Below the pieces are notes generated by a model. That model saw nothing but the letters and a program-made list of their open reading frames with translations, ran no database searches and had not been told where the DNA came from. DNA of 64,000 bases from Branchiostoma floridae (Eukaryota; Chordata; Leptocardii; Amphioxiformes; Branchiostomatidae): assembly GCF_000003815.2 (NCBI RefSeq), contig NC_049989.1:18008684-18072683 (forward strand). The letters are read 5' to 3'. Each line of letters starts with the position of its first letter. Position 1 is the stretch's first letter. This document shows, piece after piece, positions 6,291 to 41,796 of the stretch. The position numbers and the translations under genes are program-made.

Positions 6291-7539
6291 GGCTAACATG
6301 CCACACGCACGTTGTGACGCAAACGAAGTTGGTTGAATCAAATCAGGAAGATTACTTTTTGTACTTCACTGAAAGAGAATTTGTACTTCACTGAAAGAGA
6401 AGGAAAGGTTGTGGTCCTCATTAAAAGCAATGTAGTGAAAGAGGGTCTCTGGATGGTCTTTTTCTGTATGGTGTAACCAATTTTGAGTCCCGTAATTTGC
6501 AGGGAAAGCTGTCTTGAAAGTTGGGTGACCAAATTTTACGTCATTTCCTTTCTTGATTTCAGTGAGATACGTAGAATATTTTTCTGAATTCAGTGTAAAG
6601 CGCTGTCAGAACCCCCCATGCAGACCCTCATGAAGCAGACAGCCTACAAACAGATGCTCTCACCTTATTTAACCTTTCTAATGATTAGCTAATGTGGACC
6701 CTGACATTTGGACACAGTTTGCATCTTTGTAGAAATCAAGAGCATCCCTAATCCCATGTAAAATCCTTGTATCACGAAGCCGACAGAGAGACTCAGACAT
6801 TTGCTACGGACTTGATCATTCTGTTGAAAGTAACTAACATCTGCAGTGACGCTGAAATCAAAGGTTACAACCCTTAACTTCAGGGTCTGCCCTCAGACTA
6901 AACTATTGAGTTGACGAGCTGCCAGATCGGTACAAACCGGAAAATTTGTCACTTAAAAAGCCACTAAAACGAACAAGGTGGATCATCCTCATTGTAGAAA
7001 GGAGTCAGACTTGTTTAAACTTTTGTGCGAGAGTTCAGAATGAGAGGTTTTTCCCTGTCTGGCTGGTGATAATAAGGATCGCTGTTGTCATCAAAGGATT
7101 CTCCATGTTGGAAAAGGAGGATGAGACGGGATCAGGATTTCTAGACATAATTTACCTCCCTGTCAGGGTCATACTTGGCTGTCATGCGTCATACAACAAT
7201 CTGTGCATCGCAAAAGAAGACCTTGAGATTTGGGGCTTCTGTAATTCCCAGCCTTCGTTAGGAAGGACAAAAGGAATTTGATCTGTTATACATCATGGAA
7301 AAGAAATCAATGCTATTCATTTCAACATTTAAATGTTCTGGCTTCTTTTCAAACATGGATTTTCCCTTCAAGTTGTCAAGATTATAATTCAGCCTTGTGC
7401 CACTAGTGTTTTTTAAACCTGTAAGTGTAAGCCATTACTACAATTGCACTTTTTTTTAGATTCTTCATTAGTGTAGTTCTTTCAAAAGTGGGTAGGGGGC
7501 ATCACTAGTAACATTGACCTTTCTTCTCTCCCTCTGCAG
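6291..7539. other. Non-coding stretch before the first visible SLC43 exon
   Basis: Probably intron of the LAT3/4-like gene, because the exon at 7540 opens in mid-codon after a good acceptor. A 'gcatcgcaaaag'-type open frame at 6946-7281 has no transporter character. No splice donor preceded by SLC43 N-terminal coding sequence is visible. Confidence 0.4.
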
Positions 7540-10500
7540 ACAATATTGACTACCTCAACATCACCGATGCCAACATCACCGACAACATGACTGTCATTCT
7601 GCCCATGGAGGAGGAAGGCTGTATCGCTCAGGACGAAAGATTGAACTTGGCCTACACCATCGGATCTTTCTTACTCAGTGGAATGACCTTTCCTCTGGGG
7701 ATGTTCATGGATAAGTTCGGTTCGCGAAACCTCAGGATGGTTGGCAGCGCCATGTTCGGATTATCCAGCGTACTGTTTGCAATTGCATCGAGAAGTAAGT
7801 GTAACTTTTTTTTAAATTCATTTATTTAATAATCTTGTAAGGTAGTCCCTTCAGTTTTCAAAAAAACTGATTTCCAAGGGAGCCTTTGACTAGAGAAGTT
7901 TCTTTTCGGTTCATTTGTAACATGATAGAAGTCGACATGCGGTGGTTGGAATGTCTTTGTACGGACTGATGTTTTGCTTGACTTAAAGTATTCTGTACTT
8001 TAGTATTTGAGGTATGGTCTTTGTGATCCCAAGAAGCATCCAGAAGCATTGCATCTTTGTAGGTTTGTACTCGTATCTAAAGTAATAACTTGATACTTAC
8101 TTGTATACTTTTTTGTCTCTGTTTTCAGCCAAGATGTCCATTCTCCTGTTCCCCGCGGTGTCGTTGAACGGCATGAGCGGTATCGTCCATGTCTTCACTG
8201 GCTTCCAGATCACCAACCTGTTCGGCGACAAGCGAGGGACGATGATGAGCTTCTTTGTGGGAGCCTACGCCTCCTCTGCTGTCGTCTTCCCTGCAATGAA
8301 GGTCAGTATAAATAAAAGTACAAAGTCCAAATATCAACAATTTCAGTGTCCAATAAGTTACTTGTGATAGAAAATCAATTTGCTTTCAAGGACAAAACTT
8401 TGTACCTAATAAAGGAATACTATTAGTTGTCCTTTTAGCAAGTGTAACATTTATTTGATTCATTTGTAGCTACAATTCTATTTGTAGATATGTATAAACT
8501 GTACTACAGTTTTATTTGTAGTTACCATATTTAAAATAGTATCCAGTATTTAATGTAATGATCAATACTAACACTACTTAGCACAATATAACACTTGGAC
8601 ATGACTTGAAACTTCTATAAACCTCTGCTATATTTTTTCCTTCAGGGTCTGTATGATCTGGGCATCCCGTTTGACACCTTGTTCTTCTGCTACGCTGGCC
8701 TGATGGTCTTCGTCATCCTGAACTGTTACTTCAATGTGCCGAAGGAACCCATCCCCGGGCCTGAGGAGATGGACTTCAGAATCAAATTTAGGTAAGTTTT
8801 AATGTAACACTAGTTCACCTTTATCCGCGGGGTAACCTATATCCGTAGTTTTAAAATAGTGCATCAAGATAGACAGTGGTTTCAAATTGAAATAAGAACT
8901 GCAGTTTGAAACCACCATCAGTCTACTTGATATCCATAGATATGCTGTCTTAAAAAACAATGGATATTGCAGTGACCTCATACCACAAAATCAATTGCAG
9001 AGAAAGTACGACCTCCTTTCCCCTCTTAGGCAAAAATAAATGATTCTACAGTACTTTATATGTTTGATAAGTAAAAGACATTACTTGACAACATTGCATT
9101 CTTGTTCCACTTTTACAAGGTAGTTGCCCTCAGTATCAGATTTCTTACATTGTATACTGTGCTTTTTCTTCAGACCATTCGGTGTTCACCACAAGCTGAC
9201 AGGGAAGCACTTCTATGGCATGGTGACCACAGTGGGGCGACGACTGAGCATCGACGAGAAGGGCGGCCCCACCATGACCTCTCACCTCAACCTGGAGATG
9301 GACTACAGTTCTGTGGACAATGGTGAGGGTTGGATAGATCTCATTCCTACATGTTCATGTATATGACATATGACATTGTAGATGCTTCTTGTATCTTTCC
9401 TGAACAACTGAGTTGATTCCAAGATGATCACAACCGATGATGACTTAACCCCAGCCCTAACCCTACCTTTTGACTCACCCTTGTAACTTAAAGCAATCAA
9501 GTTTACATTTTATCTAAAGTCTAGACATAGTAATAGTTGTAGTTTTGTGATTTCATAGAATTGATTTATTAATTAACATTTATTGCCTCTTCTAATGTAA
9601 TGAATATGTGTAAGAAAGTATAATTTGTATCAATGAAATATGAACAATGTGATCACATATGAGCCTCATACCACTCTCTCTGATGTACTCTTAAACTTTC
9701 ATCTTCATTAATTCCTATGTGCACAAATTTTCAAAAGAGCCAATCCTCACTCACTTCATCACTACTTTCATCATTTTTCTAATCATAATTTACCTTAATT
9801 TTTCTTCTACTAATGCTAACACCATGCAGTCTTGAAACAGATTTTTCTGTGTAGCACAAATCATATTCATCCAAGATATGTACCCTTCCCCCTACTGAAG
9901 CAGCCTTAAGTATCAAACATGTTATTTGGTACAAGGTCATGCATTAGGACGAAGGTTAACGAAGTGTATAAAAAAATACACTTACATCATTTAAAACAAC
10001 TTTTTATCTTGTGATCCTCAGCTAGGCACCAGAAAAATCTGTTTCACTACTAAATTAGCCTGGATGCCAAACTGTTTCCAGGGCCTACACAGACCAGCTT
10101 CTTGGCTCCAGAGCCAGCATGCCTCTAAGGAAATTCTGCTATAGCCCCTTGAGTTAGGTCCTAAACTCATGGTGGACTCTGGCAAAATTTTTTGGAGGGG
10201 CATGTTGACCCTGAAGCCAAGGAGCTTGCCTGTGTAAGTCCTGGAAACAACCCAGGCTAGCACAGTAACTGCATACTTATCCATGCTTGGTTTTATTTTA
10301 TTTTCACCTTCCACACTAACACTGGCTCCCTTCTGGCACCTTTTTTTCTGGTCGGCTCTTGTGCTGACGTTAGCCCATCCTGTTGCAGCTATCCCGCCCC
10401 TGTCTAAGAGCATCTGCACCATGGCATTCATGTGGAGCGTGGTCACCATGTGCATCGGACAGCTCAGACTCATCTTCTTCATTGGAGCGCTGAGCCAGAT

Positions 10501-13500
10501 GCTGGGGAGAGTGTCGGGGGCAGACAGCTCCAAAGGTGGGTACTTGCACCATGAACGTCAGAAGATACTAGATGTATTAGCCGCTCCTTATGCTAGGGTC
10601 ACATTTACAAACTGGTGCCGGGGCAGGCAGTTTGCCGGAAAGAAAAGTATGTAAAAGACAAAACGTAAAAAATGACAGCACGCAAAATGTGGAAAATGTT
10701 CAAGAGCATCATCAAGTGCACTTGTATTTTTTTGTTCCTGGTTTGGGCATGTGACCCAATCATTTGCAGGCTCTACGAATCTGGCTTCTGTCCTGTAAAG
10801 CTGTATATACAAAATATATAACTGCACTTCAATTGTAAAATTATCTGTCATAAAGGGACCAACAAAAAGTGGTCCTTCTGTGGAGGTTGTATTTGACAGT
10901 ACAAGTCAACTCCTTTGACGAGACCTTTTTGTAGTACTGATATATGAAAAAGAAGTGGGGAATCTCAGCAGACTGCTGTTTTGATTAACGCATGCTCACG
11001 TAGACCACATCTGTGTTTGTCTTTCATTCCTAAATCAGACTTCATTGTGTAAGAGCCGACCTACAGACAGCCCAACTCAAACAGACCTCATGTTAATTAT
11101 ATAAGAGAACTGAGACATGAAAGATGCCGACTTTCTATCACACACAAGATCATGGCATCTTGTTTACTCTTCCGCCACCTACAAATTACTGTTTCCTCTG
11201 GACTTTGTTCGATTCCTCTTTGAGGCGTGGCAAATGACATGCTTCTAAGACTGCACCTGTCTGCGCTCAGTTTCATTTTAATTACTGTTGTGAAGACAAG
11301 AAATTGGCTGCAGATACCACAAATCTTTAATTTTTCATGGATTTCACTCCACTCATGTGACCACTCCACTGATGTATTACTAATTGTACTACAGAATTAT
11401 TTCAGCTGTAAACTTGTAGACATGCTAAAAAAACTCCTCTTTTGATTTTAATTATGTCTTGGCAAAAACAAATGAATCTACAGTAAAAATGAATCATACC
11501 TCCTGTAAAGATTTTTTTGATGATATAATAATGCAGTCTTTTCTTTACTCTGAAAAGAAGCTTGCATGTATCAAACTAACACTTAACATTACCTTCTCTT
11601 CACCTCACTGTTACCTCATGCTTATGGACTTGAATAAACTATATCTAATTGCCCACATCTGCTTTATCCCAAATGCATGAAATTAAATAAACTTAAATTT
11701 ATCACTTATTTGTTGTGTGATGGTGACTTTAATACTGACTGCTTCTTGACCAGGGCTATAGAATGGAAATTTTCTTCTTGGAATGGATAAAACTTAAATT
11801 GCGTCCATCCAAAAAATCTGATATGAAACTGTTGAAAATGTGTTTTTGTAAGCTGACACATACGAAAACAAAAATCATTATTTGCAAACCCAATCAAAAT
11901 TTGCTTGCAAGTAATGAGTGGGATCAAGGACGTTACATATATCTCATATAACGTCCTTGGTGGGATGTAAAAAAAAAATAAAATGTCAAAACTTGAGACA
12001 ACCCTGGTGTGATCCTTTATTGATGTTGTGTGGGATGGTGGCTTTATCCAATACTGACTGCATTTCTTAATCTCCAAGCAGATATACCAGTGGCAAATGT
12101 GTGTCCCAAATGGTATCCAATTGGTCACAGATTCCTGGCCGACAATTGGATACCATTGTAGCCCTTTGGATACTGCCTTATACCACAAATAAATCTGCTT
12201 GGGGACAATGCTTCTTGACTGTGTCCTTGAATGATCATGCTGTGGTGATTTCTTCATGCCTGACGTTCTAACGATCAATGCTTTCCTTCTACACCCCCCT
12301 CCCCTCCACTATATATGCTGCTTCTGGGCTTGGCGAATCAAAATAGGAGCCCAATATATTGGTAGGTGAAGGGCTCGATCTTAACTTAAATTCTGCACGG
12401 GCTTATCACTTTCATGTACACTTTGATACACACTGCGGAATACTGTATCTGTTATACTCTATAGTATAGCTTGCACTGTATACTGAGATTCCCAGATGCA
12501 CTTTGGCAAACACTAAGAATGCTACCAATGACATTATGTTGAAGATGATGAAATAATGATAGGAATGGCCACTTGTAAATGGCTTTCAACAACTTCCAAT
12601 AAAAAAAAAAAAAAAACTCTGTTAGGGTTTGCTAGTGGGTACCATCTTTACTATCATCCTTTTTAGTATATATACCAACAAATATCACGAAGCATTTAAT
12701 TTTCAACAATTGCCTGTATCATTTTTTTTTTCTTTTTACCTTAGAGATAGATGTTTCTCAAGATTGAGGGGGATTTAAGCCTTGTTTGCAATACTGTTAA
12801 AATCCTTACAAGGAAACAACTCAGAATCTTCAATAAACTACCGAATGCTGACATGTTTTTACTCTAAGACTTCCTTTCTGCATGTTTCTGTGTCCAAAGT
12901 CAACTCACAAGACAAAAATGTAAACATGAAAGACTAACCGTTTTGTCTCCTCTCTGTCCCCACAGTGAACATCTATACCTCCATCTTCGGTATGATCCAG
13001 ATGGCCTGCATCCTCATGGCCCCCCTCATCGGCATCGTCCTCGACTGGAACACCAGGCCGAAGAAGTCCAAGGGTGCCAAGGAGGAACTTCTCGACGACA
13101 CGTGCAATGGGAAGGGCAGCACCTCCAGCGAAAAAAGGTAATTTGTGAAGCTGCTGTGGTTTCATTTCCATGTCAACCTCTCCAATGCAATATTGACACT
13201 GTAATTAAGCATTTGTATCACTACTTCTCAATGACACTTGCACTGGGAAGGGCAGCACCTCCAGCGAAAAAAGGTAATGATAATATTGTGAATCTGAACA
13301 TGAATGTCCGCAGTTTTATTTCTATGGCGAAAAAAGGTCATTGTGAATCTGGACATATCCGCATTGGTTTTATTTTCATGTCGATCCCTCCAATGCTAAT
13401 TTGTGACAGCACAATTTAATGTATCATTTACTGCTGTACTACACTATTGTTTTAAATGCTATTTTGAATCACTAAAAATCTTCCTTCCCTTTTACTGTAA

Positions 13501-15435
13501 GATAAATGAATCTTAGATATTAAAAAATCTTTTAAAAGATTATTGAAAGGATTATTTTCATAGTTTTGTGTATGGGGACTGGTCTTACAAGAAAACACAT
13601 TTGTCAATATTATGCTTTGAAGCTCTTAAACTAATATCAAACATTATAGCTCTAAACTCTTCAGGAAAGTAAACAAAGACAATGAAGCTTTATACTCAAA
13701 ACCTGATTGTCCCCTGTTTCTGCAGTATCAGCGTGACCCTCAGCAAGCAGAAGCAGCAACAGAAGGTGAAGCTACAGAAGATCAGTAACGTGATGAAGGC
13801 CTTCGCTCTCACCAACGTACTCATGATCTTCTTTGGTGTCACTGTCCTCATCCCAAGTCTGGAGCTGCAGGTGAGAAGATGTGCAACCTACTGTCAGTCT
13901 TGAAAAAAAGTGGAAGTGATCTCAATCAGTGTAGTCACTGAAGGGCTACTCTACCACTGCTTGTAAAAGAGACAGACACTCTTTGATATCATACATAATG
14001 TGTCAATACTAGCCTGCATACCAGACCAATTTCCAAATTATCCATGGTGTGGACCGACCTTAAAACTATCTATCATGTCCACACCATAGATATTTTTGAT
14101 AGTGGGCTTGGGTCTGGTATCCAGGCTATATCAACATGTTGTGTAGATTTAAGTATGCTGTTTGAACAAACAGTGAAAAGAAAACTGCTGCAAGGATTTC
14201 AGAGTGTTTGATGGCTGATGTCATTTTGAACTGAAGGAAAACAGTAATTGATGTATTTTGTGTTTTCTTCTCGCAGATCCTGACGTTCTTGCTTCACACA
14301 CTGATCAGAGGGTTCATCCATTCAACAGTCGGTGCCATGTATGCCACTATGTAAGTTTCCACTCCATGTGTAAACTTATTACTAGATTGTAAGAATCCGT
14401 AACAAAACATACTGATACTAAATTCACATGTGCTGCATTAAAACAAGGAAATACTTATTTTTGCACTGCACGCACACACTAATTTAAAGGTCAAATTGTT
14501 TGTAAGACTAAATTAGCGTACTTTATATTAGGGACAAACATGTTCGATAAAATGTACCAAAAGATGTAGGAAAATGCCCTGGAATGACACCTAGACGTTG
14601 CATAATGCAAAAAATTGACTCTCCAGTTTTTAGTCTCTCTCTATTACTGATAAAATTGTGTTGTTTTTCCCTCAGGTATCACCACACCCACTTTGGCACG
14701 CTGACAGGGTTGCAGTCGCTGATCTCTGCAGTGTTCGCCTGCCTACAGTACCCCATCTTCACCATTATCAATGGGCCGCTCAACGAGGACCCCTTCTGGG
14801 TACGTGGATTATTACAACTGTACAATGCGAGCAATCGCTTTTGTTTATATCCAGGGTATTTGACGGCTGGCGACTATCAGGACATCAGTGGACTGGATTA
14901 AAAATGGATATGTAAATTAGCAGATCAAAACACCTGCTTTTTGCCCACCTCTGTGTCACCGTGACATCATTGCAATCACTCATATGGGGGACACCAAAAG
15001 TTATAGCTCCAAATATCTTATCATTGACGCAAGCATAAGATTCTGCCTACATGGCAACTTGTCTTCCTATCTGCCATTCAAAAGATGAATAAAAGTGGAC
15101 GGAGAGTAAGTGGTATACATTTGAGCCCCCTAGCAGCTTTTTTTTTAAATTGTAGGTGCTTATTTTGAAGGAGACTTTGAAGGAAAGAATAACTCATGAA
15201 CCTACTTTTCTCCCCACTCCAGATGAATGTTGGCTTGCTGGTTCTCACGTTCTTCAACTTCGGTCTGCCAGCCTACCTCTTCCTCTACGTGAAGAGACTA
15301 CGAGCCGAGCCAGAGGTGGGCAAACCAAAGACGTCGGTTGTATCGGTCGACCTGCCAAAGAACATGAGCTCGAAAGCCCTGATAACGACGATAAAGGAAG
15401 AAGAACTCGACAACGACGACGTGTTCATGGCCTAA
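7540..15435 (+). CDS. SLC43A1/A2-like: SLC43A1/A2-type (LAT3/LAT4-like) amino-acid transporter, 5'-incomplete
   Basis: Ten exons join in frame: 7540-7794, 8129-8301, 8646-8791, 9174-9322, 10389-10535, 12966-13137, 13726-13870, 14277-14350, 14676-14799 and 15223-15435 (stop TAA). All have AG/GT borders and matching phases, giving 532 codons. The protein is a major facilitator with many hydrophobic helices; the loop '[10 protein letters not shown]' is the MFS motif A between helices 2 and 3. Fragments such as '[18 protein letters not shown]' and '[20 protein letters not shown]' resemble, from memory, human LAT3/LAT4 rather than SLC43A3. Family members carry out sodium-independent facilitated diffusion of large neutral amino acids at the plasma membrane; the substrate here is inferred. 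The exon encoding helix 1 and the first extracellular loop is missing and probably lies upstream of the window. The cytosolic tail is acidic. The last exons run toward the heat shock gene. The 3' border of the 12966-13137 exon has been duplicated downstream. Confidence 0.88.
8808..8960. repeat. MITE fragment related to the element at 41974
   Basis: The sequence 'actagttcacctttatccgc' followed by a 'taacctatatccg' block matches the left end of the complete palindromic element at 41974-42157. An internal palindrome is also visible ('gtggtttcaaa' / 'tttgaaaccac'). The right end is degenerate. It lies in an SLC43 intron. Confidence 0.6.
10056..10259. repeat. MITE with 'tagcctgg' terminal inverted repeats
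   Basis: The left end (tagcctggatgccaaactgt, then ttccagggcctacacag) is complementary to the right end, which finishes 'cccaggcta' at 10259. The terminal repeats are about 40 bp. A decayed relative lies at 45115-45274. It is inserted about 130 bp upstream of the exon at 10389. Confidence 0.7.
11927..11962. repeat. Small perfect hairpin
   Basis: 'caaggacgtta' and 'taacgtccttg' face each other around a short AT-rich loop in the intron. Isolated, with no associated coding feature. Confidence 0.6.
12066..12205. repeat. Palindromic element of the 'ctccaagcagat' family
   Basis: The ends 'ctccaagcagat' and 'atctgcttgggg' are complementary at 11 of 12 positions. An inner palindrome (aatggtatccaattg / caattggataccatt) is nested inside. 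The same termini flank the larger element at 60135-60437. Intronic. Confidence 0.6.
12599..12616. repeat. Poly-A tract
   Basis: A run of A residues in the SLC43 intron; it may be the tail of a retroposed sequence, but none can be recognised. Confidence 0.6.
13104..13420 (+). repeat. Tandem duplicates of an exon end and its splice donor
   Basis: The end of the exon closing at 13137 (..gggaagggcagcacctccag.. then gaaaaaag|gtaat) recurs at 13227-13279 with the potential donor after 13273. A third, shorter copy starts near 13327 (gcgaaaaaaggtcattgtga). Shared intronic text such as 'catgtc.a.c.ctccaatgc' shows that the duplication included intron sequence. The second donor is 136 nt downstream and a TAA lies immediately after the first donor, so using it would truncate the protein. 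Confidence 0.8.
14010..14128. repeat. Palindromic MITE, 'tagcctg.ataccagacc' type
   Basis: The left end 'tagcctgcataccagacc' pairs with 'gggtctggtatccaggcta' at the right end, and a central 'ggtgtgga' / 'tccacacc' palindrome adds stem. Intronic, 119 bp. Confidence 0.75.
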
Positions 15436-23047: not shown

Positions 23048-23183
23048 CCCGATATGGCTTGTGGCTGTCTGCTCAGACCCGGGTAAAGTTACAGCACAGT
23101 TGATCAACGGCTAGTGAAGGGAAGACGGTGCTCCATCTTTGTTGTGAAACTTTGAGACTGGGAGGCGGTTGTCGGCTTTGACG

Positions 23184-24537
23184 ATGGCAGGGAAAGACGA
23201 AAGAACAATTCCTCTCTCCTTCTCCTCCTTCGGAGGATTTTCGGAGGAGTGGAGGAAGAGGATGGCGGAGCATCACCGCCAAATGCTGGAGAGGCTGGAG
23301 CGGCCGTTCGGCGGCTTCCCAATGTCAGACGACTTCGAGAGCCGGATGTTTTCGAGCCCGGCTATCTCCTGGTGGCCTGGGTACGGACAGCCACCCCCGG
23401 GGCTGGCCATCTGCCCCCCGGGACCCACCAGCCCGACCCCGGGGATGCCTATGTCGCCGTTCCCCTTCCCAGGCCTGCCGCCGAGCCCGGACTCGCGTCT
23501 CGAAGTGGACGACAAGAAATTCAAGGTCATGGTGGACGTGAACCAGTTCTCTCCGGAGGAAGTCAAAGTGAAGACGGTGGGGAACTACGTGGTAGTTCAC
23601 GCCAGGCACGAGGAGAAGCAAGACGAGCACGGCTTCATCCAGAGGGAGTTCACCAGGAAATACATGCTGCCAGAGGGAGTCGACCCCGAGAAGGTGAGAT
23701 ACAGCATCCGATTTCTTTCTTTTTATAATTCTTCGCCAAGAAGTTTAGAATGTTTTTGTTCGCGTGTGTGTGTTTGTGGCAAGGTTATCAGTGGTTGATT
23801 TGTGTACAATATAAACTCGAGAAGTTGATCGATATCTATGATATTAGGTAGCTGGGAGGGGTCGCCGGTTGGGTTATTGAAGGTCAAGTTCGATATTGCG
23901 CCTCCTAGTGGCTTTCTATGGTAACTGCAGTGGAACGTCAGGTTTTGATACCTGGTGTTCTGGACTTTGAGTGGTAACGCTATATACTCTTGGGACAGAG
24001 AGTAAGAAGTGTAGGATTGGACCAAGGGCATTGTATGAAAAGGATTGGACTCCCTAACGGCTCTATTTTGAGCTGCAGGGGCTGATTTTGGGTAAAGTCT
24101 GCTAACCTGTCCTATTTGTCTTTGTTTTGATTCGCTTTTGAATGGGACCATTGTTTAATGCATAAACTTTCCTGGGTGGGATTGGTTGTAACGTTAAGTT
24201 AATTTTGTAATAAATTTAATTGTTATTCAGTAACGTTAACGTTACACTTGAAGTTTGAATCCATTCCAAAGCAAACAACAAATATCATAAATTTGACCTG
24301 GTCACCAGGATAGGCACCTTACAACAGCCTAATTAATCAGATGGGATTTCCTAATACAACAAGGTGAACAAAATCATTAGATTTTCCCCTTACCTTTCCC
24401 AGGTGACCTCTTCCCTGGCCACAGACGGAGTGCTGACGGTGGAGGCGCCCACACAGAAGGCCCTGGAGCCGGCCGGACCCGAGAGGAGCGTCCCCATCAA
24501 GAAACAAGACAAGCCAGCCGTCGAGGGGAAGAAGTGA
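23184..24537 (+). CDS. Small heat shock protein (alpha-crystallin / HSPB type)
   Basis: Exon 1 is 23184-23693 (170 codons) and exon 2 is 24403-24537, joined in phase 0, giving 214 residues. The N-terminus is arginine/phenylalanine-rich with a WW-x-GYG segment and a proline-rich linker (residues 70-104). The alpha-crystallin domain spans about 106-189 (LEVDDKKFKV... to ...ATDGVLTVEAP). R158 in 'REFTRKY' occupies the position of R120 of vertebrate alphaB-crystallin. The tail carries the V-P-I (IxI/V) motif at 200-202 and a KPAV block as in alphaB-crystallin. Such proteins form ATP-independent oligomeric holdases that bind unfolding proteins. The start ATG was chosen because it is the first after the TATA box; the upstream in-frame TTG is unnecessary. 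The promoter has HSEs, so heat induction is expected. The nine tail codons plus 3'UTR are amplified downstream. Confidence 0.93.
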
Positions 24538-29332: not shown

Positions 29333-30177
29333 CTATATGGTTGAAACTTGGTCGACCACAAGGAGGTTTTCATCCTCCATTCGGCGCGGTTTCTTCACCG
29401 TCTTCGGCCCGTTCTCGCGATACTGCTGGTCGAGCCACTTACAGTGGAAGTACAGGTACACAGGGTGGATGACGGTGAGAGCCGTCAGCACCAATAGGAT
29501 GATGTTTACCTGGGAGGAAGGATTTACAAGTCACTGTTACACCTCACCTTTTATGTCGTCACTTCTGATTGGTCAACTGAAAAAGGCCATTACTTGCAAA
29601 CATTATGATCCTAAAGTAATTAATTTTAAGATACATGCACCACATAAAAATTACAGAATGCACATAGATAATGCTAAATAGTAACTTAAATGATATTAAA
29701 GATCGAATTCATTTTGTTTACCAAGTGTCCTCACGCATTTCAGTTTACTTTGTTCAACTGTATTCAAATATGTATCAACAGAGTTTTGGCCAGCCTAAAA
29801 AAATCACAACAACAAAAAACAAGGACTGAAACAGGAAATACAACATTTTTTTCAAGGCCTTATAACTCACACCATCACCCTGGCCATAAATCTACACCAT
29901 TTTCACCAAAGATCTTACTGGTGTAGCATTGCCTCCGAACGTGTCAACAGTCAACATGAACAGTGGGAACTGCAGGATGAGAATGACGCCTCCGACGCCA
30001 TAGTTTGATCCTAACATCTTACCAAAGTGTCGTGGAGGGTAGCTGCGGAAAATAAACTATCAAATTCTGCTTCAGGACAAAGAAGGGGGAGGGAGACACA
30101 ACATTCCAATACCCCAAACCCAGTGTTCTCGCCAGGATTTTTTCACAGCGTCGGGGCAGGGGTTCGGGGGCCGCCGA

Positions 30178-30209
<32 letters not shown>

Positions 30210-33200
30210 TTTGGGGGGACCCAGGGGGCGAAGCCAACCCGGAAGCTCTTGCATTTTAGGCTATTGAGAAGGCTTATTTCATCATTTTTTAGGGCCATAT
30301 CTACGATAATCGCAGCGGTCATTTAACTTCTCTTCAGCAGTTTGACGTAACAATATTTCGGGTCAAAGCTTCAAAGACAACTAAAAACTCATAAACGACA
30401 AACTTTACTCAGCTCAACGGTACTTAAAAATATTGTCCTGGTTGCCATCCGAAGTTGAAGCGCTTATTTATAGCGCTAGTATCTTCGCTGTTAGCCGCCG
30501 TGCGACCCATTCTTTAAAACACGTGGGACTCAGTGTTACAGTCTAATAAATATTTTGTCGAAGCACCGCTGTGGGAAAGAAAGTCCAAGGAATGTAATAT
30601 AACGTAGCATGAAGTTCGCTGTAAACTTGCACACGGCACATGACTGAAACTGTAAACAACAGCCACGTTTGATTGATAGCCGGCGGCCCTTTGATGAAGT
30701 CGGAAAGGTGCCGACACTGCCCTGGCGGTTTGTGGGCGGGGCCACATGGCGAGGCTTGCCGGCGAAAGTAGCGCCCCGGCTTTTACATACAAACTTACGA
30801 TGGTTTGTATCCTACGGTTGCCGAACCAAAGAGCTTCAAATTTAGAACAGAAATTTTGGGAAAGCGACCCGCTCTTGCTCCAGAATTATGTCGGAAAAAA
30901 TTGATTCTATTTCCCGCGCTGAAATAAAAATTACGCAACTACCAGTAACAGCCTATGTTGGTCAACCCAGCTCCCCAAATAAGGACATTCCCCGGGAACT
31001 GGCTGTTCCAGGCAGGGATCCCACCCCACTGATCACTCGCAGCAAGGCCCACTCGTACTCGCTACTCTTTTTACATTTTTTTTTGGCGCGAACGCAGTGC
31101 GGCACATGCAAAATTTAGAACAGGAAATTTGGAAACGCGACCCGTTCTGGCTCTATAAATGTGTCAGAAAGAATTGATATTTTCCGTACTGAAAAAGAAA
31201 TGACGCAAAGTACTACTAGTAACAGAAATAACGTCCTTGGTAACAGCCTCCCCAAATAAGGACATTCGCGGGAAATCTTATACACATTGGCTGTTCCGGG
31301 AAGGGATCCCACCCCGCTAATCACGTGCGGGCAAGGCCCTCTCGCCACTCTGTTTACATTGGATTTCCGCGGGAACGCAAGGGTGGTCCCGGGTGGGAGG
31401 GGCTGCGAGCCAGCGGTACGGCGGGCCGGTGCTGTAAAACACCTCCCATCGAGTTGATAACTTCCTGAAGCAGCGAAGGCACGTGCTTGGCGCGTGCCTA
31501 TGTATTTTTACTACAATATTTTTCTTTTTTTCCCCATTTTCTTGCCGCTACGCTGGATGAAAAAGCAGCGTAGCGGGCTTTTTACAGCGTCGTTTTTCCA
31601 GCCCACAGCGTATCGTCCCGCTATGCTGAAAAGGCCTGGTGAGAACACTGAAACCTGACAGGTACTGGAACGTAAGATACATGGAAAACTCATCTTCAAT
31701 CAGGGAAAATGATTTTCCAAAAGCTGGCATCACTTGGTTTGAAATGGCTTGGCCAACTTGTCTGCGAGTGCAAAAGGACATTTTGGGCAGCAATACGTCT
31801 TCTTGATCAATGCACAATTTTTAAAGATCAGCCAATGTCTGCAGCTTGCCGAGCCTTGTTCTATGTGAAAGGTAGATTTTCTGGTGCAAAAAATGCTTGA
31901 ATCTCGATTTTGAAACTAAGTGACTTTCTGGCGATCGACATATTCGTTGAAGTTGTGATGCCGGCTTCATTTGTACCTCATTTTCCCCCATACACATTGT
32001 TGTGCCTCTGTTGCAGTCTTCTGACAGGGCTGTTTTTTTTTCCTTTTTTTTGCGCTGGTTCTCGATTTTCAAAACGAGGCGAAACTCCCTTCCACGGCAA
32101 ACTTCCTACCTTGGCAAACTTCCTTTCCCGTCATAAGAGAACCTAGCCAACGCTGAAAATCACAAACTAGCGACCAAAAAAAAAAGCCCAGTTCGTAGAC
32201 TGCAAAGGAGGCTTACACATCCTAGTAAAACACTTACTGGCATAGGGTTTCCCTGGAATACGTCCTGGGTTAGAATGAAGAGGGGGTACTGGAAACAGCT
32301 GAACACCCCGCCTATGAACATGTCCGCACCAAACATCTTACCAAAGTGGCGAGGGGGATAACTAGTGCCAGAGGAGAGAGGAAAGACGTGTTAGTTCACC
32401 AAAGATTGCGTGCATGCTGCCATCACCTGTAAAGAGCCCCTTGGCTGCCCCTGTACACAACTGATTATGGAATGCTTGAGTTGGTTGTATGTGCAAGTCG
32501 ACTATGAATTTTGACAAGTCAAAGCAGGGTTCGAAATACACATACTAGTACTTAACTTGCAAATTGCACATAATTTTCGAGATTTGTAAAAATATTCTGA
32601 ACTTGCAATCTTGCATGTTGAAAATACCTGACCTATAGTAAAAATACTGAGGAATTAGACACCCTACTCTTAGACATAACAACATATGGACGTCTGTCTT
32701 TTTTCTTTTCTTGTTTTTGCTTCACTAGATGTCATCAAAATTTGCTGATTTAAGCCCTCGTCGCGATCGCTGCCAAGTTGTATTTTGCATGTAAAGTTTT
32801 CAAATTGCACGTAAAATGTTTGCCAACTTGCAATTTGCATGTAGCAAAAAAAAGTATTTCGATCCCTGCAAAGTCGGGTAAGACATATTCTGCTTAATAG
32901 ATGTGATTAGAGGAGCTATAATAGGATGGATTCCAGACTACTCCCTACCCAACCCAGCACTGACCTTATAATTAATTGGGGAGTGGCTGGGAGCAAAGTC
33001 ATGGCTATGTGTGACAGGGGCTGAAGGATAGGAGTGTACTGTTTTCCAACAGTTGTACAATACAATTCTATACATCCTATTAATGAATGATGATGTGTAG
33101 GTATTTCTGGTATCACAGGATGTCTATTTGATACTGCAATCAATGTTAGAAATGACCCATAGAAAATTGTTAAAGATACATTTTGGTTCTTAATGACAAT

Positions 33201-36200
33201 TAGATAATAAGTATATTTTTGGTTTCAAACACATTATTGTACCAAAACCCCACATTCAGTTTGATATTAATAGAATGTATGAATGTTAAATCCCTTGATT
33301 CTTTGGCCAGTATCTGGTTATAAATCTCTCTCTATATATACTCAAGTTTCATATACATTATCATATGAAATACACTATATAAAACATGAAAATAGAAATA
33401 TTTTCCCCAACATTATAGACTAAATTTTACACAGTAAAATACACTGAACCATAAGGGTAGGCATTGCATATTATACGATACCTATTGATACTATTACACA
33501 ATGATTAATTCACAAAAAGCTGAATTTTACATCTCAAATCGTGCAATGAAAAAAAATGTATACTCAAAACAGAACACAGAAATTAAAGTACACATCTCAA
33601 ATCAACAACTTCTCAACATGTACAACTGTTACTTACCCTACTGCAAAAAAGGTAGCATTTCCACCGTACAGGAAGGACCTAAGTATGACTTGTAGAACGA
33701 AGGATAGGTACTGGATGGGTAGGACTGGTATGACCACACATACGGAGAATAGCACTCCCAGAAACGTGGTCAGGCTAAAGGCAACCACACAGGACCGCAG
33801 GTCCAAACTAGCTTTCGTGTAGGCTGACTCAACACCTGGAATAAAAAGAATGTAATTTGTAAATTCATCAATTTTCATGGTGACTTGATGGTCAAGCTAA
33901 CGAGGAGCTGGACAAATGTATTAGAATAGTTTTAGAACCCATGTTTTAGATTAGTCTTAGAAACCATCAATGTCACCATGTGTACTGTATAACGACCTTC
34001 GTACCTATATGCCTTACTTACCCCAATAGGGCATGAATATGATTGAATATGAATATGAAATTGAATGTGTTTAAGTTTGCAGGTGAAAAATTCTGAAGTG
34101 CAGTAGAAACACATTGGAAATGCATAGTTGCATTGTCTTTCATCTACAGTGGACATGTTACCACCAAAACAGACCTACTGAAAACATTTCAAGAGGGTAA
34201 CAATAAATTACAATTCCAGTTGTATTCTGATGCTCTAATGCATTATCTGTGTAACTTTGGAATGTTCAGAATCCTTATTTCAACACAACTGTTTTTTTTT
34301 TTTTTAAGTGGAAAAAGACGAAACCAAAGTAACAATGAGTCAGCACACAGTCTTTGAAACATTTTCGAAACTTTTTAGTTTCAGTCTTCATACAACACAA
34401 TAAGATTCAAAGTTTTTAACAAACATGGTTCCTACCTGCTTGCTTGTCCTGCACCATTTTCTTGGTGACGTATTTGCGGTACGTGTCCATGATCAGTCCG
34501 TTCATGGGGGCGCAGAAGACCCCGAAGAGCTGCGTGATGGCAAAAGCCTCTGTGTATCTAATGACTGGGGATTTAAGAACAAGGAAAAAGGGCATCAGGT
34601 CCGAGAAGATCAGAATTTTTCAAATGCTTAACATTTTTCAAGAACAGTCAGGATATAGAGTCATCTCAGTGTTTAAGCATATTCAAGACTCGTAGAAGCC
34701 ATTCTCTGGGTAGATCAGGGCTTTAGCCAGCTCGAATTTTTTTTCCGTCAGCCAATTCCAATCGTGGTGAAAATCGCGAAAATTAATTTTTCCTATGACA
34801 CTACAAAGTAGTAAATGTTGCCATTGAGACCTTGAAAAACCGGTTTTAATGAGATTATCGTATGCGAAAGAGCGCCGACACACATTGTCAACAATCATAA
34901 CAATAGCAAAACAAACAGTGTGTGGCTTTTACAGCCATGGACAGCGTCCCCAAGCCGCCTGTAGCTTCCACCTAGGATTTTTGTCCGTCAAGGTTGACGA
35001 ATTGGTTTTAGAATTTTTCCGTCAGACACAGTAAATTTCCGTCAATTGACGGAAAAACGGACGCTGGCTAAAGCCCTGGGGTAGATGTAGTTAAAATCTT
35101 AGACTAATGAGACAATGCAGGGTGTAGACCTTCAGATTTGGACAAAGAAAAGATATGCCCACATGTATTTTCAAGGAAAAAGATCTTGACCTATTTTCTT
35201 TTATTCTGTGAGGACCCCTAGTTTGAAATGGTCAAACTCTAGCCAGATACCATCTCTTTCGAAATACAGCTTACCACAACAACACAAAAATATATATAAC
35301 AAGTTATTGCAAAAACACAAATACAAACTGACAAAAATCCCTCCTCATGAATTAGTGGCTTCTTCTATTTTGATATTGAATTGAAAAAAATGTGTACTAT
35401 ATTTCAATCTGGAAAATACAGTCACAGTGCTGTCCTTTACCATTAGATTTTCCTTCCATAACTCATGATATTACAACAGCACAGAAAAGCATCCACCTAC
35501 ACAACCATTGGAATCTGCTAGCTTGGTCATCTAGGGGTTAAATGTTCAACAGAACAGAAAGCACCCACCTACACAACCGTTGGAATCGGCCAGCTTGGTC
35601 TACCAGGGGTTAAATGTTCAACAGCACAGAAAAGCACCCACCTACACAACCATTGGAATCAGCCAGCTTGGTCATCCAGGGGTTAAAGGTTCCCATGAAG
35701 AAGTAGTTCCTGAGCTGGATGACGGAGAACCAGAAGATGTGTGTGTAGAACATGCCAGACTTCAGTCCCTTCTTAAAGGTAGGGTAGTACAACTCGGGTG
35801 TGCTGATCTCTTCCTCCTCATCTTCTTCAGCTACAGGTGAGAAAAGTGAGAGTGATATCGAAGCGGACTATCTCTGTAGATCAGCACCATCTTGATAATT
35901 CAGGACTGGTTATGACAAGGATGCTTAATATATGGCTTCAGTTCTGTGTATTTCACATAGTCATTGTACCAGGAAAACTCTTTTTGACAAGTATGATGAA
36001 GAGTGTACTACAGCTTAAGGTCATGTCCTAAGGACTGAGACCCTTTCCAGTTTCTTGCATGTTAGCTGAGTAAGAACAGCAAGTGAATCGAGTTCAATCT
36101 CTTGGTCTGGGGAGCAGGGTCTTTTTATTTTTCAAGCCAACAACCTTAAATTCAACATAGAATTCTAGGACACAGTCCAAAATACAATCTGAGATACGTT

Positions 36201-39200
36201 TATGGAAATAATGGATACTGTGATATAGTTTCTTACTTTGCTGTGCATTTCCATTTGACATTAAGGCCTCCTGCTGCAGTTCCCCTGCATCATGGTTATT
36301 ATGGTTCAGTTCTACATCACCCGGGGGTCTCCTGCCGGTGTTCTTGCCCCTGCAGATGCCGTAGTTGTAGTCCTGCGGGAGGGGCCAGGGGAACTGTTTG
36401 TTCGGCAGCAGGAAGAGCGAACGCAACAGCAGCAAGGACGTCGCCACAGAGAAGAACAGGAAAATGACCTTGAAACTCACGCCGCCCTCGTAGATTTTCT
36501 GTGGAGAGAAGAAAGGGAGAAATTTGCAAACGTTGTACAGTTTGTTGTGATAGTGTTTTGACAGACAACAAGAGGCTGATAAAGCTTAGATTAGAATCAG
36601 AGATGCTGGTAAACTTTAAAAATTGTGAAATGTTGGGGTGGTTATATTTTTGCAGTTTTAGCAATGACTGCTCCAATACAGATTCATCACACAGTGAAAA
36701 GGTAAACTGTACTACAGAATTGCAGTCCAAGTCCCAGTGAAAATAAATGGTGTGACTAAAACTGTCACCTGGCTATCTGTGCAAAACAACAGTTTTAAAA
36801 AGTGTGGGCAAATGGGTGAAAGACACTGCAGAGGTGCTAGATCTTGATTCTAATAAGGAAAAGAGGTAGGAGTGAGGGAGGTGCAGAAGGTGTGAGAATA
36901 GGGAGATGGGAGAAGATGAAATTTTCTCTCACAAGATGGAAGTGACATCATATTGTTACTGCCAAGATTCAAGTTTGAACTGTCAACTGAAAGGAAGAAA
37001 GATGGATTTTACAATGCTGAGACTAGACTGAGGGTTATTCCTTCCACAAAATATTTGAGATGACAAGAAGTACATGACTTTGTGAACTTGTAGAGGACTA
37101 AATAAAAATCCTTACAATCCTTGCAATGAATTAAGCCTGAAATGTACATGGATTACAGTGCTCATGTAACCAAAATTCAATATTTCTTAATCCAGGGCTC
37201 GAAATACCCACTTGAAAATGCAACCACATTTTGCTTTGCGCAACCTAATTTTAAACCCAGGTTGCACACTGAGCAACCTGAAATTTTGCAGTTGGAACAC
37301 TGCTTTTTCCCCACCTACATGCTTAAGCTTTTGTCTTTATTTTTTGATAACATAAAACATATTACACAGTTACATATAACCGGAAGAAAAGATATTGGTT
37401 AAGTAGCTGATTTGAAGAAAGTAACAATTTGAAGGTGGGGCAACCTGAAATGTTGATGGCGCAACCTGGCTTTTGACTCGGGTTGCCACTTGGACAACCT
37501 GGCTGAAAAAAGGATTTCGGGCCCTGTTAATCACATTCAGCTATAACTGTTACAGTAACTGTGTTTTTCAATGAACATAGACGTTTGATAATACTTACCA
37601 GGACAACAAGGAACACAAAGGAAGAAGAGTCGAAGGCTCCGTTCACCAGAGTGATGACAGTGGATCGCTTGTCTCCAAACAGGTTTCCAATCTGTGAAGG
37701 GAAACAAGGAAAAAATTTTAAACTCTGTGGACTGTTATTGGCAAACATAGCAAAGCTACATGGAGGAAATGGGTAAAGAATTGTAAGGTGGAGGTCATTT
37801 CAATTTCTTTGTTTAAGGAACTGCTTGTTTGGCTATTAGTACAATTTATTATTGTCTTGTTAATTGAAATCATTGGGATACTACAGTACTAGGAGTTCAG
37901 CTGAATTGAATTAGTTTTTTTCTGACAAAAAGGGAGTTCTAACAAAAAGGGAGTAGGGATAGGCACACCCTGTTTAATGACTTCTACTTCCTCCATCTAC
38001 ATTAACGTTTATGCTGTCTATTTTGAAAATCTAGATATCTTGTTTTTGTTTCCTTTTGTCATTTTATTTGGAGTCTGCAAGGCATGCCATCCATAAAACA
38101 TACTTGCTATGGCCTAAGGTAAGTCAAATTTAGTACTCTTAAGAAGTTCTACCATAAAATATACTTTTAGTGGCTTAAAGTCTTGGGAGAGTCAAATTTT
38201 GTTCTCTGTAAAAGTTCTACACCTTACAGGTGAGGTCAACGACCTTGCTTTGTACCTGTGTTCTTAAGGCATTCTGTAAGGAGGTCAGTTTGTGTTCAAT
38301 ATTGACCATAAAAAGAAGAGGTCCACACCTGTACAAACATGCGCTATGTACCATGCCCCCTAGTTGGGGCCAACAACCTTAGCTAGGCTTGTGTCCAGGG
38401 TATAGACATGTCAGGGTATAGAGACTTAGGGTCACTGTAATCTGGCAGAAATATCACCAAGCTCAGTAGGGGCATCTTTGCTGGATAGTTTAAAAGAACA
38501 CTTGCAGATAGATGTGCAAAAGTTAGGTGTGACAGGTCGTTCAGCGTAATAGAACCAGCTCCTGCTATGCTACTCGCCTGCGAAGTTGGTGTGTTACGCC
38601 GAAGGTTATACTGGCTATATACAGATACAGAATTGCAGAATCTACCAGTAGAGGTTGTGATAGAGTCTGTGAATAGAAACTCTGATCGGAATGGTAGAAA
38701 TGGGCTAGGGAGATCTCTGATTAATAGTGAGTCAATCAATGGATCTAAAGTGATAAGAATAGAAGTTGAAAAGTTCTGTCTGTTAATTTTAAATTACCTT
38801 TGAATTTACACATTCTCCTGGCAGCCTCTAACTATATATACAACATGTAGAACCAAGGTCCCCAAGTTAACCAGCATATACAAAGTACACTTAAGCTGCC
38901 AATAGACAGCCTTGAAAGGATGTTTGACCATTTGTGCATGTGCATGCTATCAGTTTAGGGACACATGTTAGTCACCTGGTAAGTGTCAACATGCAGATAA
39001 TGTTTTTGGTCTGTCCTTTTGTGTTTATGAATATTTTTTGGTCAGTAATAACTTTGGAAAAATTATGATGATATTTGATATGTGGGTATGGCTTGGGAAG
39101 ACAAGATCAAGGTCGATTTTCGGCTTCCTAGTACTATAGCAGAAATTTTCTTTTTATATATATTTTGGCTTGGAAATGCTATGGTTTACCACAGAGGATG

Positions 39201-41796
39201 AGCAGCAGTTATACGACACCCAGAATAAGGCACTCGGGCTGAAGGACTTTAAGTTATCACCAGTAGTACTCCAATCTGTCCCTCCCTCTTCCCACAAGTC
39301 AAACAGTGAGATCTGATAAGACTGACCATTGCTATGCCAAGTACCCCTGGCAAGACAATGAAATGTAAACAATTATTGAGTTTCACAGCACAACTGGCTG
39401 GTATGGTTGGCAAGCAGACTTGAGAATCTAACTGATTCCCTAGCCTGTAGGTGTTACTGAATATGTATTTGTTACAGAGTACGGCAACAACTTGAACAAG
39501 AGGAGGCTTAAATCATTAAGATGAGACTCTTCAACACACTGTAAAGTCATTAGAAAATCAAAGGAATGCATTGTAAAAAATTTTCTGCAAGCACTGCAAG
39601 TGTGCTGGATATAAAAATCTCCATTGAGATTGACATTGCAACTAATTTTCAAAACATTCATGTCATTTTTTCATATCTCAAGCGTTGGGAAAAAAGTTTA
39701 AGTTCCCTATTTTTCAGTAGTGTGCTTAAAAAAGGACTACATGTACCAAAGAACGTAAAGAGATACTAGATGTTCTATCTACGGAACAAATGTTAGCATC
39801 ACAGCATATCAAAAGTGCCCCCTATTTCATCCATGGAGCATTACAGGTACTGAAACACAAAACTCCACTGTTACGGTACAACACTTGAAAAACAAAGCAC
39901 ACATGCACATACAGTAGAAGCCGCTTAATTGCACGGCCTATTTGACAGTGAATTTCGTGCAATTATCTGGATGGTGAAATAATGTGAAGTTATCCAGCTA
40001 GACCGCACCGGTTTGGGATTTTGGGATTCCGTGCAGTTAAAAGAAGAGTGCGTTAATCCGTTGTGCAATTAACTGGCTTCTACTGTATTTGGTTAGACAA
40101 TTAACCTGCTGTTGTTCACTTCTAAACAGATAGGTGGCGCTTCTTACCTGCATGTTGGTGATGAGCAGATATCCTCCAGAGGCAGCCATAATGCACATGG
40201 AGGCAAACAGCATCTCAGATGATGCTGAATGGAACACACATGTAGAGGTTCAGTAATTGTGATGTTAGGCTTTTGAGTGGTGATACTGTCAGGGTCGGTC
40301 AAGTCCACTGGCCAGTCCAGGGCAAGTAAAAGTGCTGATCGGGCAAGTAAGATTTTTCCACGAGTGAGACTTATTACTTTTCAGTCATGGTATCAAGCAC
40401 TGGTCAACACAGAAAAATAGAGCCAATAATAAAAGGATTCCATTGCTGGAGGTGAAAATATCTAGAGATACGTTACTTAAATGTCGAGCAAGTGAAAAGT
40501 TAGTTCGGGAAAGTAAATTTTCTACAATGTCAATTTTAGAAAACTTGCCCAACACTAATGGTTCAGTACCAGCAAGGATTTGGGGGTGATTTTAATTTCA
40601 CGGTTTTTGTATTGATGCTGTGGGTATGCACGTCCAATGTATTACTATTGTACTTTCGTGTACAGATGAGATGTTGAATGTTTTTCCAAAATTCTTAGAT
40701 TAAAAACAACACTTGTATACCCATATATCCAGCTATAGTTTACGAATAATGATAAAATTTGTGTTGTTGAAGGGTCTTACCTACTGTTGTGAAGGCTGTC
40801 ATCAGCATAGCGATGGCGTACGTCACACTGTGTGATGGACAAATGTCAAGAAATCAGTATAGTCATTTTTTACCAAATGGAAAACTTCCACAGTAGTGTA
40901 TAACAAGCCAAGATAGGACATATGTAAAGCTCGTCTACTCTAAATACCAGATAATAGGACAGGAGCGTACACTTGTTTGTAGAACACAAAAAGTATAGGG
41001 ACAGTATTCAGGCTATACAAAATGTAGGTACCAATAATTAGTAAGTCAGGTGAAAATAGTTGGGGCTATTCCATCTGAGAAGTCAATGTGGGAGGTATAC
41101 ATTAGTAATATTTCCTTAAGTGTTTACATGTTATCTTTGACCTCATCCATGCGCAGTCGAAACCAGCCTATTGCTACCTAATTACCTGTTCGAACTAGCG
41201 CTTGAACCAATCAGAGCCCTTGTCCAAAATATGGATTCCAGAGATGTCAAGGTTCCAAGACAGAACAGGCAGAGAAGCAACTGTATATAGTGTATAATAA
41301 ACTTCAGAGCGAACTATTATCGAGATTGTACCCAGGCTATGCCACAAATGTTAATGTTACCTTACCTTGCCACTATCCTGGTTTTCCTGGTTCCAAACTT
41401 GTCATACAGGATACCGTTGGGAAGCGCCATAAAGCTGAGGCACGCACTCGCTATCGTGAACACGAGCGACAACTGTTCGTCCTGATACGTGCACCCGACA
41501 CTCGGGGCGGCACAGGAGTCAACGTCAGACGCGTTCGACAATCCTTTTGGCGAAAGCGTTGTGAATTGAGTCTCGTTTGAAAATATGACCAGCGTCACCG
41601 CCATATTAACGCTGCTGTTCGAAAAGCCGTTTTCTTGGCCGTTGACGGCAGAAGGACAGTTCGAACTGAAGAAGTTTTCTGACTTGAGGACGATGACGAG
41701 CGAAGCCCAGCCAAAAATGAGTCCACCAAACAGAAGGCACTCCAACACTCCAGTCACAAAGGTGATCCATTTCTTGACTGGAGGAACTTGCGACAT
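29333..41796 (-). CDS. SLC43A3-like: SLC43A3-type (equilibrative nucleobase transporter-like) MFS protein
   Basis: Exons in transcript order: 41796-41366, 40827-40781, 40224-40148, 37691-37599, 36498-36237, 35830-35642, 34564-34436, 33835-33637, then 32361-32238 or 30042-29919, and 29509-29333 (stop TAG). Phases match throughout, giving 575 residues with either alternative exon. Helix 1 is at about 11-36. The extracellular loop has NxS/T sites at N60, N74 and N88. MFS motif A is '[10 protein letters not shown]' (128-137). '[16 protein letters not shown]' and 'NGAFDSSS' strongly resemble mammalian SLC43A3, which transports purine nucleobases by facilitated diffusion; the substrate here is inferred. 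A glutamine/glutamate-rich cytosolic loop (about 260-315) joins the two halves. The ATG exon begins at 41807 after an acceptor, so a non-coding first exon lies further upstream (not located). Exon 6's end is duplicated in its intron. Confidence 0.93.
29919..30042 (-). CDS. SLC43A3-like: Alternative exon 9b of the SLC43A3-like gene
   Basis: Acceptor 'ttattttccgcag', donor 'CCA|gtaaga', 124 nt, entered in phase 2 and left in phase 0. It encodes [20 protein letters not shown] followed by a hydrophobic helix and 'GGNATP'. It matches exon 9a in length and phase, with 24 of 41 residues identical. It introduces an N-x-T sequon (NAT) absent from 9a. Confidence 0.85.
30121..31650. mobile_element. Probable hAT-like non-autonomous element, about 1.5 kb
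   Basis: The terminal repeats are 'cagtgttctcgccagg' (30121) and 'cctggtgagaacactg' (ending 31650), 15 of 16 paired. 'aaacc' lies outside both ends, too short to be a clean 8-bp target duplication. Inside are a GC-rich block (30145-30240), a direct duplication of about 270 bp (30838-31109 / 31110-31380) and a palindromic GC-rich segment near 31545-31620. No transposase frame is recognisable. It occupies most of the intron between exons 9a and 9b. Confidence 0.6.
32238..32361 (-). CDS. SLC43A3-like: Alternative exon 9a of the SLC43A3-like gene
   Basis: Acceptor ends 'ctag', donor 'CCA|gtaagt', 124 nt, phase 2 to phase 0. It encodes [20 protein letters not shown] and then '[18 protein letters not shown]'. 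The 'FS.FQYP' stretch is closer than exon 9b to the equivalent 124-nt exon of the LAT3/4-like gene (14676-14799), so 9a may be the ancestral form. Confidence 0.88.
32525..32868. mobile_element. hAT-like element with 'cagggttcgaaatac' ends
   Basis: The left end 'cagggttcgaaatac' and right end 'gtatttcgatccctg' are complementary at 14 of 15. 'caaag' flanks both sides. Internal text repeats 'aacttgcaa.ttgca.gta'. Intronic. Confidence 0.6.
34716..35078. mobile_element. Non-autonomous hAT element with perfect 8-bp target duplication
   Basis: Ends 'cagggctttagccagc' and 'gctggctaaagccctg' are perfect inverted repeats. 'gggtagat' occurs directly outside both (34708-34715 and 35079-35086). An 8-bp duplication with CAGGG-type termini is diagnostic of the hAT superfamily. 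No coding capacity. Located in the intron before exon 7. Confidence 0.88.
35474..35700 (-). repeat. Three tandem copies of an exon end with its splice donor
   Basis: A unit of about 72 bp (start points 35474, 35547, 35619) contains, on the minus strand, 'aacccctgg.tgaccaagct', then 'tgattccaatggttgtgtag|gtgg'. The copy nearest 35642 is the real end of exon 6. The other two carry a TAG inside the former coding frame (tggtag; ccctag), so they are not used in frame, although their donor-like GTGG persists. Confidence 0.85.
37193..37526. mobile_element. hAT-like element with 'cagggctcgaaatac' end
   Basis: The left end 'cagggctcgaaata' and right end 'ggatttcgggccctg' are complementary apart from small changes. 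'ttaatc' lies immediately outside both ends. The interior repeats 'gcaacctg' motifs. Intronic; relatives are at 32525 and 54850. Confidence 0.65.
38092..38220. repeat. Two-copy tandem duplication, about 70-bp unit
   Basis: 'ccataaaacatacttgctat' (38092) and 'ccataaaatatacttttagt' (38152) begin two similar units that share 'gtcaaattt' and 'agttctac'. Intronic, no coding content. Confidence 0.5.
39912..40085. mobile_element. pogo/Tigger-like MITE flanked by TA
   Basis: Terminal repeats 'cagtagaagccgcttaattg' and 'caattaactggcttctactg' are complementary with few mismatches, and a TA dinucleotide sits on each side. CAGT-type ends with TA target sites are typical of pogo/Tigger MITEs. 174 bp, ending about 60 bp from the donor side of exon 3. 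Confidence 0.75.
40290..40557. mobile_element. Decayed hAT-like element
   Basis: The left end 'cagggtcggtcaag' and right end 'cttgcccaacacta' are partly complementary, and the interior repeats 'gggcaagtaa'. No clear target duplication. Confidence 0.4.
41160..41341. repeat. Dispersed repeat ending 'gtacccaggcta'
   Basis: Its right half (gaag.aactgtatatagtgta, then taataaac and 'gtacccaggcta') matches the right half of the element at 42845-42971. The left end is degenerate ('ccagcctattg'). Confidence 0.5.

Follow-up and report, generated by a model that had tools for sequence, protein, structure and literature searches.

Tandem duplication of exon 9 in an SLC43A3/ENBT1-like gene of the amphioxus Branchiostoma floridae, with mutually exclusive splicing of the two copies so as to retune a single transporter, is very probably the explanation for a pair of homologous exons, 9a and 9b, found in the window (the whole stretch of 64,000 nucleotides that was analysed). 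When the gene was rebuilt from its splice sites and open frames, position 9 was present twice among the ten coding positions (Table 1). Judged from the sequence, exactly one of the two exons is probably used at a time, and one gene likely gives rise to two transporters that differ in a channel-lining helix.

The SLC43A3-like identity of the gene, proposed in an earlier sequence-only reading of the same DNA, was borne out by comparison with ENBT1 and LAT4, LAT3 (SLC43A1) being absent among the PDB matches. Human ENBT1 (SLC43A3, PDB 9l38) was matched over its full length with E-values of 8.5e-107 for the protein carrying 9a and 1.1e-103 for that carrying 9b, far better than LAT4 (SLC43A2, 9jbs), for which the corresponding values were 4.9e-63 and 2.9e-59. 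Membership of the major facilitator superfamily is indicated by a match to Pfam MFS_1 (E=6.4e-17). By homology, the gene is SLC43A3/ENBT1-like and related to the human purine-base carrier, with a predicted role in transport.

A second SLC43 gene, whose exons span 7518-15435 on the plus strand, lies in the same window and is LAT4-like (2.5e-100, versus 3.9e-42 for ENBT1, both with a partial protein); a match to its first exon falls just upstream of the window, at C11:18008485-18008622. The two genes are arranged tail to tail, separated by an open frame that encodes an Hsp20/alpha-crystallin domain (23148-23798, plus strand; Pfam PF00011, E=2.6e-18). In human, too, SLC43A1 lies next to SLC43A3, so the linkage of SLC43 genes may be ancient.

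Table 1. Coding exons of the SLC43A3/ENBT1-like gene, the intron between 9a and 9b, and the corresponding exon of the neighbouring gene, in window coordinates
Feature	Position	Strand	Evidence
Exon 1, coding part; TM1 and extracellular loop 1	41366..41796	-	ATG start, donor gtaag; aligns to human ENBT1
Exon 2	40781..40827	-	splice sites, open frame
Exon 3	40148..40224	-	gene rebuilding
Exon 4	37599..37691	-	gene rebuilding
Exon 5	36237..36498	-	gene rebuilding
Exon 6; 3' end repeated twice in next intron	35642..35830	-	gene rebuilding, repeat search
Exon 7	34436..34564	-	gene rebuilding
Exon 8, shared upstream exon	33637..33835	-	gene rebuilding
Exon 9a, 124 nt; TM10-TM11 loop, TM11, start of TM11-TM12 loop; closer to family members	32238..32361	-	
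Exon 9b, 124 nt; homologous alternative to 9a	29919..30042	-	
Exon 10, shared downstream coding exon; TM12, C terminus, stop TAG	29333..29509	-	
9a-9b intron, 2195 nt	30043..32237	-	
Homologous exon of LAT4-like gene, 124 nt, phase 2 to 0, found once	14676..14799	+	

The exon pair and its reading frame

Both copies of exon 9 are entered in phase 2 and left in phase 0, and each completes a glycine codon, GG/N, that is split at the end of the common upstream exon 8 (GTA GG/gtaagt). The acceptors read cactag in 9a and ccgcag in 9b, the donors gtaagt and gtaaga, respectively; CCA precedes both donors, CAG being the common sequence at this place. The two exons share 24 of 41 residues (25/42 with the split glycine) and 74 of 124 nt, with differences at 14/41 first, 9/41 second and 27/42 third codon positions. 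The sequence-only reading had given the coordinates, lengths, phases and identity count of the pair exactly, and it was also right that the variable part is a late transmembrane helix, namely TM11, which the pair swaps; the opening nine residues, YPPRHFGKM, are identical in the two copies.

Used as a query within the window, 9a found 9b at E=1e-14, followed by the corresponding exon of the neighbouring LAT4-like gene (at 14677; 7e-7 with 9a, 0.003 with 9b), after which the next matches scored 0.47 with 9a and 0.013 with 9b. When the 49 differences were placed at random 20,000 times over the 123 bases of 9a that lie in frame, at most 22 residues were kept, and 31% of the placements remained open. 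Neither a third copy of exon 9 nor a second exon 10 was found within the window.

A single gene thus contains two homologous internal exons that are next to each other and share their phase, and computation of the frame consequences indicates that no normal protein results from including both or skipping both. With either exon alone the protein has 575 residues. Inclusion of both leads to a stop within 9b once 524 residues have been read, with 100 nt still to go to the junction between 9b and exon 10, and such an mRNA is expected, by the usual rule, to be a target of nonsense-mediated decay (NMD). When neither is included, a stop arises at the junction of exons 8 and 10 after 476 residues; this stop lies in the apparent last exon, and the double-skip mRNA may therefore escape NMD. 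The claim that skipping or keeping both exons disrupts the frame accordingly stands, qualified by the possible survival of the double-skip product.

Two details of the earlier proposal need amendment. The glycosylation sequon ascribed to 9b is present, as N-A-T-P in the final four residues, yet it is weak and its use is doubtful, given its place in a short loop between TM11 and TM12 with a proline directly after it; and the junctions listed for checking omitted 29919-29509, which joins 9b to exon 10.

In the mechanism proposed here, an ancestral SLC43 exon 9, encoding the TM10-TM11 loop, TM11 and the start of the last extracellular loop, would have been copied in tandem, and the gene would yield alternative mRNAs in which exons 8 and 10 are joined through either 9a or 9b. 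Exclusivity would be enforced at least by the reading frame, 124 being 3n+1: the double-inclusion mRNA would encounter its premature stop and be degraded by NMD, and the double-skip mRNA would encode a protein lacking TM11-12. Of other ways in which exon choice could be imposed, steric exclusion of 9a-9b splicing is ruled out by an intron that is too long, and incompatibility of U2 and U12 sites was rejected, both exons having, by eye, ordinary-looking GT-AG sites. A repeat search, run without a control, gave 12 inverted pairs as candidates for competing RNA structures, one of which (I4) has an arm in 9a and none of which ties both exons together, so that no convincing structure emerged; counts of a few splicing-factor words, likewise without a chance control, gave nothing notable in the introns.

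Repeats were observed in two introns of the gene. In the 9a-9b intron (30838-31324), direct repeats that have diverged from one another are spaced by about 280 nt (68 nt at 82%, 37 nt at 89% and 28 nt at 89%), possibly a duplicated fragment of a mobile element. Further upstream in the gene, a 73-bp unit present three times in tandem with 89% matches (window 35474-35692) carries two more copies of the exon 6 end, 5' splice site included, into the intron that follows; use of the later copies would, by eye, meet a stop.

Origin and divergence of the two copies

Genome searches in which the best candidates were scored placed matches to the exon at the ENBT1-like gene, at the neighbouring gene and at four other loci, on C2, C10 and, twice, C17. 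The last four correspond to further SLC43-like genes at C2:18.72-18.73M, C10:10.30-10.31M, C17:4.56-4.57M and C17:7.86-7.87M; a match on C19 (E=5.8) was rejected as an SLC43 gene, the stretch around it giving exon-10-like matches only. A profile of exon 9 was then applied to 2982 open segments, each bounded by AG and GT, 100-160 nt long and running from phase 2 to phase 0, drawn from the window and ten fetched 10-kb stretches around the matched loci and C19. Eight of the tested segments had been used to build the profile and so match by construction; the C10 exon stood outside it and was found at E=0.0003. The exon-9 unit was present in 5/5 of the other SLC43-like genes found, with lengths of 124, 124, 124, 118 and 121 nt and always from phase 2 to 0, and none of these genes had a second copy within the fetched stretches. 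Across the window and the ten stretches, two separate exon-9 places occurred only in the window's ENBT1-like gene, longer, shorter or shifted variants at one place being left uncounted; three segments with different donors, of 118, 127 and 148 nt, were available at the C17:4.57M gene, and the shortest was taken.

Because the unit is found singly in these five genes, it looks ancestral to SLC43 and duplicated in the ENBT1-like gene. A tree of nine rows and 41 columns, in which gaps were placed by hand for the C10 and C17:4.57M rows and true letters were used for the first five residues of the C17:7.87M exon (filler in the profile), grouped 9a with 9b with support of 95/93, the only strongly supported one of six inner branches. 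The tree thereby dates the duplication to a time when the lineage of this gene had already parted from human ENBT1 and from its SLC43 paralogues in the genome. The branch to 9b measured 0.51 and that to 9a 0.26; the C10 copy is highly divergent in TM11, with a branch of 1.59. No retrocopy with a spliced junction was evident, none of the 19 genome matches to a protein query at E<=0.01, again with the best candidates scored, being longer than about 145 residues.

Between 9a and 9b, synonymous divergence is saturated and non-synonymous divergence is restrained, pS being 0.778 (22.8/29.3 sites) and pN 0.279 (26.2/93.7 sites; Fisher p=1.7e-6), and a long-dead second exon is therefore unlikely. This comparison was extended with a rough binomial model of equal rates, in which about half the synonymous distance is expected at non-synonymous sites if one copy is unconstrained. 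Under a neutral 9b the observed non-synonymous count had a probability of 0.05 at a true pS of 0.55, 0.004 at 0.60 and 6e-5 at 0.65, and was compatible with neutrality at 0.50 (P=0.23); the synonymous count itself had a probability of 0.006 at 0.55 and 0.001 at 0.50. For this single genome, most plausible values of the synonymous distance speak against long-term neutrality of one copy. Positions at which 9a and 9b agree also tend to fall in the better conserved family columns (Mann-Whitney p=0.012; borderline under a stricter cut, Fisher p=0.050). On the other side, each copy keeps the usual residue at just 7 of 15 well-conserved columns. At the 17 sites where the copies differ, 9a carries a residue found in other family members at 12 and 9b at 5, by which measure 9a is the more conserved copy and 9b the more derived. 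The faster change of 9b would also fit relaxed constraint, perhaps recent, a recent relaxation being conceivable because 9b is faster and each copy is off-consensus at about half of the well-conserved columns.

These observations bear on three other explanations of the pair. That 9a alone is used, 9b being a decaying or dead duplicate, is improbable: such an exon could well show the longer branch of 9b and its smaller share of relatives' residues, but 9b has stayed open across 41 codons without an indel, and has kept both splice sites and the correct phase at a saturated synonymous distance as well as the same YPPRHFGKM start as 9a, and its neutrality since the duplication is rejected at a true pS of at least 0.60 and borderline at 0.55, a recent loss of function being conceivable. 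Less probable still is that the second exon acts mainly as an expression switch, in which mRNAs with both exons or neither reduce the dose of transporter and the protein difference is secondary. The NMD predicted for double inclusion and the truncated protein from double skipping would suit such a switch, yet a poison exon needs no complete, in-frame, homologous TM11, and it would leave unexplained why pN is far under pS and why the residues in common fall in conserved columns. An assembly artefact, for example an exon misplaced from another SLC43A3-like gene, is the least credible of the three; other SLC43-like genes do exist in the genome from which an exon could have come, but a search of the genome's DNA with 9a matched only itself, the paralogous exons found are less similar to 9a and 9b than these are to one another, and a single exon 8 and a single exon 10 flank the two copies.

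Predicted consequences of the TM11 swap

The accessible part of a structural study of LAT4 (PMC13269557) assigns TM11 to the wall of the central cavity and to the gates, naming S478, F481 and S483 at the cytosolic gate, T485, Q488 and S489 in the pathway or at the substrate, and L497, Q499 and Q500 at the extracellular gate; mutation of T485, Q488 or Q500 lowered transport. All nine residues align inside exon 9, by alignment numbering. Among the positions named in that part of the study, 9a and 9b are identical at 3/3 of the cytosolic gate (Pro, Phe and Lys, with Phe alone as in LAT4 and Pro and Lys replacing Ser), differ at 3/3 of the pathway and substrate positions (Phe/Leu, Asp/Asn and Met/Tyr), and differ at 2/3 of the extracellular gate. 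Human ENBT1 has the residues of 9a, Phe and Met, at the positions of T485 and S489. The differing sites, 13 of the 23 in TM11, show no preference for a helical face (p=0.67).

Under the tandem-duplication mechanism, the isoforms would share a cytosolic gate and be altered in the substrate pathway and extracellular gate. A functional difference between them, as suggested by these TM11 positions, is plausible only, because the set of positions is small and the differing sites show no helical face; most likely the isoforms would differ in substrate affinity, substrate range or turnover, rather than in topology. A more specific proposal, that the choice of exon switches substrate selectivity, with splicing controlling it by tissue or stage and an ENBT1-type purine-base carrier becoming a transporter for a different base, nucleoside or amino-acid-like substrate, is tentative and somewhat doubtful. 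If it were true, the changes responsible would be Met to Tyr at the S489 equivalent, Asp to Asn at the Q488 equivalent and Phe to Leu at the T485 equivalent. The pair would amount to an experiment set up by nature on the SLC43 transport pathway, in which only the version of TM11 varies from one protein to the other.

Relation to known mutually exclusive exons

Tandem-duplicated mutually exclusive exons are already well known; for SLC43, no case was found in the literature searched. Searches covering papers outside subscription, without supplements, returned for SLC43 or SLC43A3 with mutually exclusive exons only papers that seem unrelated by title or abstract; Branchiostoma with SLC43A3 gave no paper, and amphioxus mutually exclusive exons gave none on SLC43 by title or abstract. 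The sequence-only reading, which knew of no description for SLC43 genes, is in agreement with this outcome. Nor do we know of a TM11-swapping variant of human SLC43A3/ENBT1 or SLC43A2/LAT4, which are full-length homologues (9l38 and 9jbs) with the same TM11 segment.

The pairs of SLC25A3, SLC39A14 and SLC12A1 (NKCC2) alter part of the membrane domain and transport, and they belong to different transporter families and affect different helices. Human tandem-duplicated mutually exclusive exons have been surveyed by Hatje 2017 (PMC5740500) and Martinez-Gomez 2022 (PMC9741552). In the accessible text of the former, lengths are not divisible by three in 377 (60%) of 629 clusters, and pairs encoding transmembrane helices are held to be hardly possible as cassettes; SLC43 does not occur in that main text, and the single SLC term in the accessible text of the latter is SLC12A1. 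As far as these accessible texts describe the human pairs, the amphioxus exons resemble them in being adjacent, homologous, internal and of equal phase, in breaking the frame when included jointly, and in swapping residues within a folded domain; unlike the surveyed pairs, 9a and 9b are known here from genomic sequence alone. SLC25A3, SLC39A14 and SLC12A1, on the same partial sources, are likewise solute carriers with mutually exclusive exons, and the pair described here would add SLC43 to the transporters whose membrane domain is retuned by tandem exon duplication.
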